This document shows, piece after piece, positions 2,525 through 53,805 of a stretch of 64,000 nt of DNA. The translations under genes were made by a program, and so were the position numbers. How positions within the stretch are numbered: position 1 is the first letter of the stretch; each line of letters begins with the position of its first letter. The DNA lies in contig NZ_LOAJ01000001.1 of assembly GCF_001542905.1 (NCBI RefSeq), positions 496,001 to 560,000 of the forward strand, in the 5' to 3' direction. Under the pieces are notes generated by a model. The model did not search any database, had not been told where the DNA came from, and worked only from the letters and a program-made list of their open reading frames with translations. Source of the stretch: Halorubrum aethiopicum. Its GTDB lineage: Archaea > Halobacteriota > Halobacteria > Halobacteriales > Haloferacaceae.

Positions 2525-2930
2525 GAGCGATCGCCCGAGCGGTGGCGCGCCGGTGAGTGCCCGAAGGGCACGAACCCGACCGCGAGGGACGCGGTGAGCG
2601 CTCGGAGAGCGCGAACCGCGAGGCTGGGGAGGCGTGAGGTGCGGTTGCGGGGCTGTGCGGGGTGGGACTCAAAGGGGCAGCCGCGAGGGCGAAGGCGGCC
2701 GACGTAAGAACCGCAGGGAGCGAGTGAAACGAGCGACTGAGGAGCGTGGTTCGAGACGCCGGAGGCGTCTCGTCATCACGAAAGGCGCGAAGCGCCTTTC
2801 GAACGACAACGAGGCCCCCGAGTCCTCGCGGCTGGGGCTTTGAACTGGGTCTCGACAGTCGTGTCCACCGCGCCAGCAACGATCCTCTTCTATCCATCAG
2901 ATTCTCTCACGAAACCCCCGTACCACTAGC
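2525..2930 (+). repeat. Dispersed structured repeat, copy B (most complete)
   Basis: Most complete copy. Order of blocks: GGTGGCGCGCC; hairpin GTGCCCGAAGGGCAC; GCGAGGGACGC; hairpin GCGCTCGGAGAGCGC; core GAGGCTGGGGAGGCGTGAGG (2619-2644); GGGGCTGTGCGG; CAAAGGGGCAGCCGCGAGG; GAAACGAGCGACTGAG; hairpins GACGCCGGAGGCGTC and AAAGGCGCGAAGCGCCTTT; GGCTGGGGCTTTG; GCCAGCAACGATCC (about 2872-2884). The 2456-3071 gap contains this element and no credible gene. The 69-residue frame at 2634-2843 is basic, low-complexity and not kept open in other copies. Confidence 0.85.
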
Positions 2931-3071: not shown

Positions 3072-3479
3072 ATGAACGGAATCGAAGACGTCTTCGTCGC
3101 CCGGCTGATGACGACCGACCTCCACACCGTGACCCCTGACACGCTCGTCGAGGACGCCGCGGCCGTCCTGCTCGACAACGACATCAGCTCCGCGCTCGTC
3201 GTCGAGGACGGCCGGCTGGTCGGGATCCTCACCACCACCGACTTCGTCGAGATCGTCGCGAAGAGCCAGCCCAAAGCCGAGACGACGGTCGAACGCTACA
3301 TGACCTCGGACCCGATCACGGCGGACGCACAGGACGCCGTCTCCGCGGTCGCCGCCACCATGATCGACCACGGGTTCCACCACGTCCCGGTCGTCGACGA
3401 CGAGGGGACGCCCATCGGGATCATCACCACCTCCGACTTCGCGGCGTACGTCTCCAGCTCCTCGCCGCTCGCGTCGTAG
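3072..3479 (+). CDS. Tandem CBS-domain protein
   Basis: A 135-residue stand-alone CBS pair (Bateman module) that would bind adenine nucleotides or similar ligands as a cytosolic sensor. CBS1 spans about residues 10-65 (MTTDLHTVTPDTLVEDAA, GRLVGILTTTDFVE) and CBS2 about 75-130 (MTSDPITADAQDAVSAVA, GTPIGIITTSDFA). No other domain is present. A TATA-like GCTTATACG at 3042-3050 lies about 26 nt upstream of the ATG, so the mRNA may be leaderless, although a GGAGG also lies at 3056-3060. The partner or target is unknown. Confidence 0.9.
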   Translation: MNGIEDVFVARLMTTDLHTVTPDTLVEDAAAVLLDNDISSALVVEDGRLVGILTTTDFVEIVAKSQPKAETTVERYMTSDPITADAQDAVSAVAATMIDHGFHHVPVVDDEGTPIGIITTSDFAAYVSSSSPLAS

Positions 3480-3585: not shown

Positions 3586-4956
3586 GTGAGCGACCACCTA
3601 CACCTCAACCTCTTCACGATGGCCTCCGTCGAGCACGTCTCGCCGGGGTCGTGGACGTATCCCGGCGACCGCTCGCCCGAGTACACCGACACGGAGTACT
3701 GGACCGAGGTCGCCCGCACCGCCGAGCGCGGCGGCTTCGACGCGGTGTTCTTCGCCGACGTCCGCGGGATCTACGACGTGTACGGCGGCGACCGCGAGAC
3801 CGCGGTCGAGCGCGCGGTCCAGACGCCGGCGAGCGACCCGCAGCTCGTCGTCCCCGCGATGGCCGCCGTCACCGACGAGCTGGGCTTCGCCGTCACGCGC
3901 TCGACGACCTACACCCATCCCTACCAGCTCGCCCGCGAGTTCTCGACGCTCGACCACCTCACCGACGGCCGGATCGCGATCAACGTCGTCACCTCCTATC
4001 TGGAGTCGGCCGCCGAGAACCTCGGGCTCGAGGAACGGATGGAGAAGGGCGAGCGGTACGACCGCGCCGACGAGTTCCTCGACGTCTGTTACGCGCTGTG
4101 GGAGGAGTCGTGGGCCGACGACGCCGTCGAGCGCGACCGCGACGCCGGGCGGTACACGGACCCCGAGAAGGTCCACACGATCGACCACGAGGGCGAGCAC
4201 TTCTCCGTGCCCGGCCCGCACGGCTGTGAGCCCTCGCCGCAGCGGACGCCGGTCGTCTACCAGGCCGGCTCGTCGGACCGCGGCCGGGAGTTCGCGGCCG
4301 CCAACGCGGAGGCGGTGTTCGCGAGCCAGCCGACCGAGGAGGGCGTCCGCGAGTACATGGAGGACGTGAAGGCGCGCGCGGCCGAACACGGGCGCGACCC
4401 CGAGAGCCTCCAGTTCTTCATCGGCGTCGTCCCGATCGTCGGCGAGACCGAGGCGGCCGCCGAGCAGAAACACGAGCGGTACCGCGACCACGTCGACGTC
4501 GAGGCGACGCTCGCGCTCCTCTCGGGCTTCCTCGACATGGACCTGTCCGATCTCGATCCCGACCGGAAGGTCGAACACATCGAGACCGACGCGATCCAGG
4601 GGACGATGAACGCGTTCACCCGCTCACAGCCCGACCGCGAGTGGACGGTCCGGGAGGTCGCGGAGTTCTGCGGGCTCGGGACCACGTCGCCGACGATCGT
4701 GGGCACGGCCGAGGACGTGGCCGACGAGCTGGCGTACTGGCACGAGGAGGTCGGCGTCGACGGCTTCAACGTGAAGGAGGTGGTCCGGCCCGACTCGCTC
4801 GTCGACTTCGTCGACCTCGTCGTCCCCGAACTGCGCGAGCGCGGGCTCCTCTCTCCCGCGGATGCCGACTCGCCGGGCGACACCCTCCGCGAGCGACTCC
4901 ACGGCGAGCCGGGGCCTCGACTCCGCGCGGACCACCCCGCACGCTCGTCCGAGTGA
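3586..4956 (+). CDS. Luciferase-like FMN/F420-dependent monooxygenase (NtaA/DszA type)
   Basis: A 456-residue member of the bacterial-luciferase superfamily, in the nitrilotriacetate/dibenzothiophene-sulfone/alkanesulfonate monooxygenase branch. Supporting motifs are the N-terminal HLNLFTM, the FDAVFFADV strand, GRIAINVVTSYLESAAENLGL, and VVYQAGSSDRGREFAA, which forms part of the flavin site in this group. It starts at a GTG (3586). It stands alone between a CBS gene and a repeat region with no adjacent reductase, so the flavin would be supplied from elsewhere. The substrate cannot be read from the sequence. Confidence 0.88.
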   Translation: MSDHLHLNLFTMASVEHVSPGSWTYPGDRSPEYTDTEYWTEVARTAERGGFDAVFFADVRGIYDVYGGDRETAVERAVQTPASDPQLVVPAMAAVTDELGFAVTRSTTYTHPYQLAREFSTLDHLTDGRIAINVVTSYLESAAENLGLEERMEKGERYDRADEFLDVCYALWEESWADDAVERDRDAGRYTDPEKVHTIDHEGEHFSVPGPHGCEPSPQRTPVVYQAGSSDRGREFAAANAEAVFASQPTEEGVREYMEDVKARAAEHGRDPESLQFFIGVVPIVGETEAAAEQKHERYRDHVDVEATLALLSGFLDMDLSDLDPDRKVEHIETDAIQGTMNAFTRSQPDREWTVREVAEFCGLGTTSPTIVGTAEDVADELAYWHEEVGVDGFNVKEVVRPDSLVDFVDLVVPELRERGLLSPADADSPGDTLRERLHGEPGPRLRADHPARSSE

Positions 4957-4990: not shown

Positions 4991-5096
4991 ATCGTCGCCC
5001 CGATCGACGTTTCGACCCGCGCCGCCGGTCGACGTGTCGGCCCGCGCCGCCGGTCGACGTGTCGGCCCGCGCCGCCGGTCGATGTTCCGACCCGCG
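4991..5096. repeat. 25-bp tandem repeat, about four copies
   Basis: Unit beginning CCCGCGCCGCCGGTCGACGT repeats with an exact 25-bp period at 5016, 5041, 5066 and 5091; the outer copies are degenerate and a partial copy precedes the first. It follows the monooxygenase stop and is not part of a conserved gene. Each unit holds a GTCGAC palindrome. Confidence 0.9.
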
Positions 5097-18870: not shown

Positions 18871-18943
18871 GCCCGGATGGTGTAGTGGCCCATCATACGA
18901 CCCTGTCACGGTCGTGACGCGGGTTCAAATCCCGCTCCGGGCG
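18871..18943 (+). tRNA. tRNA-Asp (GTC), copy 1
   Basis: A 73-nt cloverleaf. The acceptor GCCCGGA pairs with TCCGGGC, discriminator G; the anticodon stem CGACC/GGTCG closes the loop CTGTCAC with anticodon GTC; the T arm is GCGGG-TTCAAAT-CCCGC. CCA is not encoded. It is followed 28 nt later by an identical gene. Confidence 0.97.
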
Positions 18944-18971
18944 TCCCCTCTTTCGGGGCCCGTCGCTGTCT

Positions 18972-19044
18972 GCCCGGATGGTGTAGTGGCCCATCATACG
19001 ACCCTGTCACGGTCGTGACGCGGGTTCAAATCCCGCTCCGGGCG
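18972..19044 (+). tRNA. tRNA-Asp (GTC), copy 2
   Basis: Identical in sequence to the gene at 18871, so a recent duplication or one kept homogeneous by gene conversion. It has no clear TATA box of its own in the 28-nt spacer, so the two are probably cotranscribed. Its 3' end recurs as fragments at 19112-19182. Confidence 0.97.
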
Positions 19045-38697: not shown

Positions 38698-38885
38698 GAG
38701 ATCGTTGCTGGTGCGGTGACCACCGCCAACGCCCCAGCCGCGAGGGCGACGCCCCTTTGAGTCCCACCCAACCGCGCCGCCCCGCACCTTACGCCTCCCC
38801 AGCCTCGCCGCTCCCTCCGGTCGCGGCGTCCCTCGCGGGCGGTCGCGGGCCTTCGGCCCGCTCCCGGGCGCGCCACCGCACCGAC
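38698..38885 (-). repeat. Dispersed structured repeat, copy C
   Basis: Copy in the opposite orientation: on the minus strand it runs from GGTGGCGCGCC-like sequence, through the hairpin GCGGGCCGAAGGCCCGC, the core (38782-38807, one base different from copies A, B, D and E), GGACTCAAAGGGGC, GGCTGGGGC, to CCAGCAACGAT. It is shorter than copies B and D, missing the GAAACGAGCGACTGAG block. It occupies most of the 38574-39120 gap, which otherwise has no gene; a TATA-like GGATATTACC near 39082 precedes the E1 gene. Confidence 0.85.
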
Positions 38886-49544: not shown

Positions 49545-50001
49545 GACTCTGTTGAAATCGTTAGAGAGATAGACATTTCCTTTTCCTTACGATCTGTACA
49601 GCCTAAGCAACGATCGATCTCCGGAGCAGTGGCGCGCCTCCGAGCGCCCAAGGGGCGCGAGGAGCCCGCGAGGGACGCTGCGAACGAAGTGAGCAGCGAG
49701 GCTGGGGAGGCGTGAGGTGCGGGGCTGTGCGGAGCGGGGGGGACCAAAGGGGCAGCCGCGAGGACGAAGCACGGCGACGTAAGCACCGCAGCGAAGGAAC
49801 GAGTGAAACGAGCGACTGAGCGAGGAGCACAGCGAGCCGCGCGAGTTCTCGTGGCTGGGGCTTTGGAAGAGTTCACCGCTCCAGCAACGATCCCGTTCTG
49901 CCCACCTCGATCTCCGTCGAAACACCCGTTCGATAGGCATTCTTCATGAATTCGCTGTTTCAGAAGCGTTTGTGTCCGAAAAATAGAATTTCAACAGAGT
50001 C
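49545..50001. mobile_element. MITE-like element with perfect 14-bp terminal inverted repeats
   Basis: GACTCTGTTGAAAT (49545-49558) and its exact reverse complement at 49988-50001 bound 457 bp with no transposase. Similar GACTCTGTTGAAA ends occur on haloarchaeal IS elements (from memory, IS5-like), so this is probably a non-autonomous derivative mobilised in trans. Its interior is copy D of the dispersed repeat. No clear target duplication is visible. Confidence 0.72.
49613..49935 (+). repeat. Dispersed structured repeat, copy D
   Basis: Near-full-length copy: GAGCAGTGGCGCGCC, hairpin GAGCGCCCAAGGGGCGC, core (49697-49722), GGGGCTGTGCGG, CAAAGGGGCAGCCGCGAGG, GACGTAAGCACCGCAG, GAAACGAGCGACTGAG, GGCTGGGGCTTTG, CCAGCAACGATCC, then a tail like copy B (CGAAACACCCGT). 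It lies wholly inside the MITE-like element. Confidence 0.85.
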
Positions 50002-53581: not shown

Positions 53582-53654
53582 GTGCGTGATCGATACGTCG
53601 CGGATGACGTCGTCAACGCCCCGGTCGTTCGGCCGTAGGTCGTGGTAAGCGCGG

Positions 53655-53805
53655 AGAACACCGCCAAAGCCCCAGCCGCACAGCCCCGCACCTCACGCCT
53701 CCCCAGCCTCGGCGACCGCCCTCCGCTTCGCTCCGGTCGGTCGCCTCCCTCGCGCGGTGCGTTCGCGGCCCACCGGGCCGCTCACGGCACGCGCCACTAC
53801 GGAAA
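53655..53805 (-). repeat. Dispersed structured repeat, copy E (short)
   Basis: Minus-strand copy with core at 53686-53711 identical to that in copies A, B and D, preceded by the hairpin AGCGGCCCGGTGGGCCGC and followed by GGGGCTGTGCGGCTGGGGC, which joins the left and right blocks with the middle (AAAGGGGCAGCC to GAAACGAGC) deleted. It therefore looks like an internal-deletion derivative. It lies 53 bp before the threonine deaminase ATG. Confidence 0.85.

Follow-up and report, generated by a model that had tools for sequence, protein, structure and literature searches.

A PATE- and REP-like dispersed element of Halorubrum chromosomes with a putative single-stranded DNA fold

Related repeat systems and the element at copy B

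High-copy intergenic hairpins in mosaic arrangement are known from the bacterial REP/BIME sequences and their RAYT transposases, for which recognition of single-stranded DNA has been proposed; REPs are short, use few hairpin sequences, and carry a GTAG-type tag. Integron attC sites are recognized as folded single-stranded DNA whose stem sequence is variable. The PATEs of Haloquadratum walsbyi have no terminal inverted repeat (ITR) and no target duplication, carry near-terminal palindromes, number ~180 copies, and are attacked inside their palindromes by SMR-A repeats (PMC3119063); Haloquadratum SMR-A repeats are also reported to target IS605-type transposons. PATE transcription has been reported in Halobacterium and Halorubrum lacusprofundi, and one of the PATEs so reported is shared by H. 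lacusprofundi and its virus (PMC10544981). DNA mini-hairpins of extraordinary stability and nuclease resistance, containing a sheared G-A pair, have been published with GNA and GNNA loops (PMC4686876). Here we describe a repeat family that resembles each of these in part, found in a 64,000-nt stretch of the Halorubrum aethiopicum genome (the window). At a probability of roughly 55%, we read it as a non-autonomous dispersed element of Halorubrum chromosomes, PATE- and REP-like and structured as single-stranded DNA.

A single copy (copy B, on the + strand with all its parts) fills the region from 2525 to 2930, in the intergenic gap bounded by the end of an ORF at 2455 and the start of a CBS-domain gene at 3072. 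Conservation among 104 copies from the same genome places copy B at 2539 to 2884, from GCGGTGGCGCGCC to TCCACCGCGCCAGCAACGATC. Hairpin H1 (2552 to 2576; GGT-[GA]-GTGCCC-GAA-GGGCAC-[GA]-ACC, inner hairpin 2557 to 2571) is joined by the linker GAGGGAC to hairpin H2 (2591 to 2619; GCGGT-[GA]-GCGCTC-GGA-GAGCGC-[GA]-ACCGC), whose inner hairpin (2598 to 2612) has a 6-bp stem and a GGA loop, not the "GGAGA-type" loop initially read there. An invariant, G-rich core of 25 nt, GAGGCTGGGGAGGCGTGAGGTGCGG, follows at 2620 to 2644 and is predicted to be mostly unpaired. A variable G-rich spacer then leads to the 5' arm of a long-range stem, P3 (CAAAG-GGG-CAGCCGCGAGG, 2670 to 2688), which covaries with a 3' arm at 2824 to 2842 (CCTCGCGGCTG-GGG-CTTTG). 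The P3 arms enclose further small hairpins, such as GC-[GA]-GT-GAA-AC-[GA]-GC at 2720 to 2734, read from the sequence by the same GA/GA and GNA rule, and, at 2747 to 2806, a nested SMR-like insert of 60 nt that itself contains two hairpins. About one-third of copies carry extensions (where present, ~37 nt left and ~50 nt right), which in copy B lie at 2502 to 2538 (..GTCAGNACRGGCRAAGGAGTGAGCGATCGCC.., consensus of 38 own copies) and 2885 to 2931 (..GAAACNCCCGTACCACTAGCA, consensus of 37 own copies). The extended element thus spans ~2502 to 2931, near the 2525 to 2930 of the preliminary description, with termini that are approximate because relatives are too diverged at the empty sites. At own copies 15, 19, 20, 22, 30, 33, 44, 65, and 95, the right end recurs in a second module, GTACAGCCGAGCGRCTGGGGCTTTGGAGACGTTCACCGCGCCAGCAACG, 3' of the element.

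Four further copies lie in the window. Copy A (122 to 340, + strand) is degenerate and holds a nested two-hairpin insert of a second type near 170 to 230; copy C (38700 to 38879, − strand) is a short form with a GAA loop in H1 and GCCGC-[GA]-CC-GGA-GG-[GA]-GCGGC as H2; copy D (49627 to 49892, + strand) has GCTGC-[GA]-AC-GAA-GT-[GA]-GCAGC as H2; and copy E (53649 to 53798, − strand) is the shortest, at ~150 nt. The short forms (copies C and E; 150 to 180 nt) are without most of P3. Perfect 14-bp inverted sequences, GACTCTGTTGAAAT, bracket copy D at 49545 to 49558 (+) and 49988 to 50001 (−), where none is expected by chance, as if copy D lay within, or had been struck by, another inverted-repeat element. 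Elsewhere in the window, a tandem repeat of 25-bp period (CCGGTCGACGTGTCGGCCCGCGCCG type, ~4 copies) lies at 4999 to 5096, downstream of an ORF ending at 4956, and two tRNA genes ~100 nt apart (18871 to 19044) have identical model scores and are apparently a recent duplication.

The core matched the 3.3-Mb genome 125 times (68 + 57) at up to 3 mismatches, and a reversed-pattern control matched 0 times. All listed core positions fall on the main chromosome; 240 kb sampled from two small contigs held no copies against 9 expected (P = 1e-4). Among 391 genomes drawn from the class, 63 carried the core, including all 46 genomes of the same genus (3 to 157 copies each), one further genus of the same family (38 copies), and, in lower numbers, a few genera from other families. 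Among carriers identified by name through exact matches to H2 plus core, nearly all were Halorubrum, with one Halobellus. Phage and viral collections contained no copies, and the full element was nearly absent from plasmids: most plasmid matches (Haladaptatus, Natribaculum, Haloferax, and others) cover just the nested-insert part of copy B. The sequence strings of the element had no match in the open-access literature, and an earlier description elsewhere is possible.

The element shares with PATEs the lack of a notable ITR and of target duplication, the palindromes, a size that leaves no room for a transposase, >100 heterogeneous copies, and nested small repeats. Its terminal inverted repeat is at most six bases (GCGGTG/CACCGC), words common to the left and right flanks were as frequent as in shuffled sequence, and an 8-bp target duplication candidate at copy 74 was discarded since there was no excess over chance overall. 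At 150 to 350 nt it is too short to encode a transposase, and its palindromes are near-terminal, with H1 starting within ~15 nt of the left core end and P3 closing ~20 nt before the right one. Unlike PATEs, it has hypervariable palindromes with a fixed GA/GA and GNA rule and a 25-nt core, is confined to the chromosome in the sampled parts, and has palindromes unlike IS605-type ends at the 24 loci compared. Those loci (20 tnpA loci in relatives, plus 4 own tnpB loci) gave just sporadic short matches, together with one full element ~1.6 kb away, a total no higher than copy density predicts, and an origin from IS605-derived ends was rejected. Beside one of the four own tnpB genes (positions 1304 to 1354 of locus L400), a fragment shares 94% identity with a segment internal to another element copy. 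REP/BIMEs are alike in their high-copy intergenic hairpins and mosaic arrangement but differ in being short and GTAG-tagged, and the Halorubrum genome is without a Y1-domain transposase. Y1_Tnp (PF01797) had no match in this genome or in several other carriers, and mobilization by a resident Y1 transposase was rejected; reverse transcriptase (PF00078) was found in 0 of 20 carrier genomes, and a retron, group II intron, or similar retroelement was likewise rejected. We accordingly call the element PATE-like and REP-like without filing it as a member, the search for IS605-type ends at the 24 loci having failed. Its resemblance to attC sites would lie in folded single-stranded DNA with variable stems, and its architecture sets it apart.

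Paired stems, strand, and the folded form

The preliminary description had taken the palindromes, which change on both sides together, as stems under selection for structure and had proposed a covariation analysis. H2 was split into three length classes (A1, A2, and A3), aligned gap-free, with 500 shuffles each. Paired cells amounted to 98.4% in A1, 97.2% in A2, and 96.2% in A3, with covariation scores of 0.586, 0.464, and 0.296 (shuffled, 0.199, 0.214, and 0.114); in each class 0 of 500 shuffles matched the percentage or the score, and slid controls collapsed. P3 formed 11.3 of 14 Watson-Crick pairs, compared to 8.2 when arms from different copies were combined (200 trials, none above 8.5), so that its arms covary across ~135 nt. 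Pairing of 96 to 98% is thus not a matter of chance: the stems are homologous and vary on both sides together, under a structural constraint common to hundreds of copies in many species. Since the copies are related and not independent samples, the covariation probabilities, and those for wobbles below, are indicative.

Two regularities go beyond what had first been noticed. One is a fixed tandem GA/GA mismatch: both GA dinucleotides beside the helix are invariant in 26/26 sequences of H2 class A1 while the stems around them change, GA/GA occurs in 69 and GGA/GGA in 6 of ~80 own H2 copies, and GA/GA flanks 153 of 204 unique H1 hairpins, among which there are 63 different inner stems. In own-genome copies 68, 23, and 94 (L123, L130, and L152), H2 is enlarged to a branched tree of nested GA/GA hairpins, for example with GAGGTGCGAGTGAAACGAGCACCTCG and GCGGTGAAACCGC within one outer stem. 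The other regularity is a strand bias. Among 109 unique symmetric H2 hairpins, 74 loops were GNA and none TNC, and mismatches were G.A in 200 cases versus C.T in 3. Wobbles read on the + strand were more often G.T than A.C in both H2 (27 versus 8; P = 0.002) and P3 (83 versus 31; P = 1e-6), counts that come from related copies. Together, the loop, mismatch, and wobble biases indicate that the + strand, single-stranded, is the structured form. Folding energy cannot make this choice: the + strand of copy B beat 100 of 100 dinucleotide shuffles (z = −4.25 as DNA and −4.34 as RNA), but the minus strand also folded better as RNA (z = −4.98).

The loops also bear on whether the structured strand is DNA or RNA. 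Of 204 unique H1 hairpins, 58 had GNA and 26 had GNNA loops, and the third position of the latter was a pyrimidine in 23 of 26, so these are not the GNRA loops of RNA. Minus-strand RNA with UNCG tetraloops was ruled out, since the palindrome loops are odd in length and the register does not fit. The element instead follows the rule of the d(GNA)/d(GNNA) mini-hairpins (PMC4686876), with the same loops, G-C-rich stems, and a sheared G-A pair in the loop, although those are short synthetic oligonucleotides and this is a genome-wide natural repeat family. The match favors single-stranded DNA, short of proof, through loop statistics and literature; energy models of DNA versus RNA loops supported neither, since the DNA parameter set used carries no bonus for GNA.

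A multicopy structured noncoding RNA family, in which copies would be transcribed on the + strand and selection would keep the RNA fold, is the strongest rival and in our estimate an unlikely one. The strong covariation, the + strand wobble bias, and the invariant core would suit RNA equally, the + strand RNA fold has the z score of −4.34 given above, and PATEs are reportedly transcribed in H. lacusprofundi and Halobacterium (PMC10544981). Such a family would nevertheless have loops that are GNA or GNNA and seldom GNRA, hairpin blocks and nested inserts that vary freely at one site, sites that are lost in relatives, and no consistent sense orientation to genes. Rfam covariance models gave no match to it, either at the gathering threshold or at E values up to 1. 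A dispersed element folding as single-stranded DNA is the reading that we carry forward.

Nested inserts and the replacement of hairpins

All of the copy B palindromes quoted in the preliminary description, which had listed them together with stems from copies C, D, and E, are present in the sequence. That grouping stands for the GTGCCC palindrome, which occupies the H1 position, as do the stems given there for the other three copies. Two others from copy B, GACGCC-GGA-GGCGTC (2755 to 2769) and AAAGGCGC-GAA-GCGCCTTT (2781 to 2799), form the two arms of the nested insert and have no homology to the hairpins in those three copies. The possibility that the palindromes are unrelated insertions, raised at the outset, is thus real for these two and does not apply to H1 or H2.

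The insert at 2747 to 2806 separates GAGGAGCG and CAACGAGG, which are contiguous in insert-free copies; its insertion is exact and without duplication, and its ends are inverted (TGGTTCGA/TCGAACGA). In 1.06 Mb of the genome there were 6 inserts of this type, every one within 450 nt of a core, and 8 of the second two-hairpin type; all 14 were located inside elements, and in two copies H2 itself is interrupted by an insert. SMR-A repeats (PMC3119063) are similarly short, with inverted ends, no duplication, and the palindromes of a larger repeat as their target. The two differ in that SMR-A is ~110 nt and inserts of the copy B type are ~60 nt (58 to 60 nt, falling outside the ~110 bp that defines SMR-A), and the likeness drawn here is one of anatomy.

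Comparison with relatives shows both presence and absence of the element and the manner in which its stems change. The site of copy B is empty in 10 relatives, with gaps of 60 to 150 nt compared to 616 nt, and at other sites the element is, depending on the species, present, reduced to its two ends, or absent; synteny at the copy E site was lost in the relatives tested, which makes it uninformative. These comparisons of occupied and empty sites are between species, while the mobility criterion used for PATEs is strain-specific insertion. At orthologous occupied sites with flanks 90 to 97% identical, the hairpins are usually wholly different. Site 32, for example, has GCGCCC and GCGGC.GA.CC stems in genome G000, GTGCCC and GCCAC.GA.GC in G011, and GTGCCCC and GCTGC.GA.GCGCGT in G033, and at site 66 G000 and G014 share H2 and differ in H1. 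Point substitution of a few percent cannot yield whole-stem differences, which means that whole hairpins are replaced. Exchange among the ~125 copies would explain this most simply. The first reading of paired stem change as a mark of structural selection accordingly holds in that the fold is kept; at orthologous sites the change itself comes in blocks and is not simple point-by-point compensation.

Gene context and candidate explanations

Gene context was assessed over ~1 Mb of genome stretches with a simple codon-usage gene finder. All 97 placeable copies were intergenic, with no gene running across any. Convergent gaps held 44 of 97 copies, compared to 188 of 890 gaps overall (P = 5e-7). 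Divergent gaps longer than 150 bp were avoided (P = 1e-4). Tandem gaps held 14 sense and 24 antisense copies, which is no significant strand preference (P = 0.14). This context is compatible with tolerance of insertion where genes end and also with a role at 3' ends; it argues against a sense 3'-UTR RNA.

The same distribution, including the lack of copies on the sampled small contigs, might suggest that the element is kept for a chromosomal function at gene ends, either transcription termination or insulation of convergent genes. We regard this as quite improbable: insertion tolerance predicts the same enrichment between convergent genes and avoidance of divergent gaps, relatives that keep the genes intact lack the element at the copy B site and at other sites, and the invariant core and nested inserts are left unexplained. 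Very improbable is an origin by mutation alone, in which template switching at quasi-palindromes, via stable GNA hairpins in single-stranded replication intermediates, would produce the stems without structural selection; entire stems do change at once, and GNA or TNC loops occur in 58 of 155 hairpins with a 3-nt loop and a stem of ≥8 bp in sampled genome DNA that includes the elements (~10% in shuffled sequence, whose stems are shorter), but template switching would be expected to remove the GA/GA mismatches, which hardly vary, and it accounts neither for P3 arms that covary across ~135 nt nor for conservation of the unpaired core.

Points against the dispersed-element reading are that PF01797 is missing from this genome, that the IS605-type loci compared have different ends, and that some PATEs are transcribed (PMC10544981). 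For the dispersed element structured as single-stranded DNA, a fuller mechanism can be offered tentatively. The + strand would be recognized as a folded single strand of DNA. Its GNA/GNNA loops, GGA/GGA loops, and tandem sheared G.A mismatches may together build a stable cluster of hairpins, which would display the G-rich core to a host factor or enzyme supplied in trans. The letters of the stems would matter little. Gene conversion or recombination could then pass whole hairpins between the ~125 copies, and both sides of a stem would change at once with the fold retained. On this proposal, which we hold as possible and no more, the fold of a genus-wide chromosomal element is itself selected, its mini-hairpins and tandem sheared G.A pairs are what is recognized, its hairpin cassettes are swapped among copies, and the machinery that mobilizes or converts it is something other than a Y1 transposase or a reverse transcriptase.

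The family raises the question of what moves or converts such elements in genomes where searches find no Y1 transposase and no reverse transcriptase. It also carries a warning: block exchange of hairpins among repeats can give strong covariation, and covariation alone is no proof of a structured RNA. Above all, it provides a natural, testable case in which the structure of single-stranded DNA, not its sequence and perhaps not an RNA, seems to be conserved at ~100 loci per genome, genus-wide.
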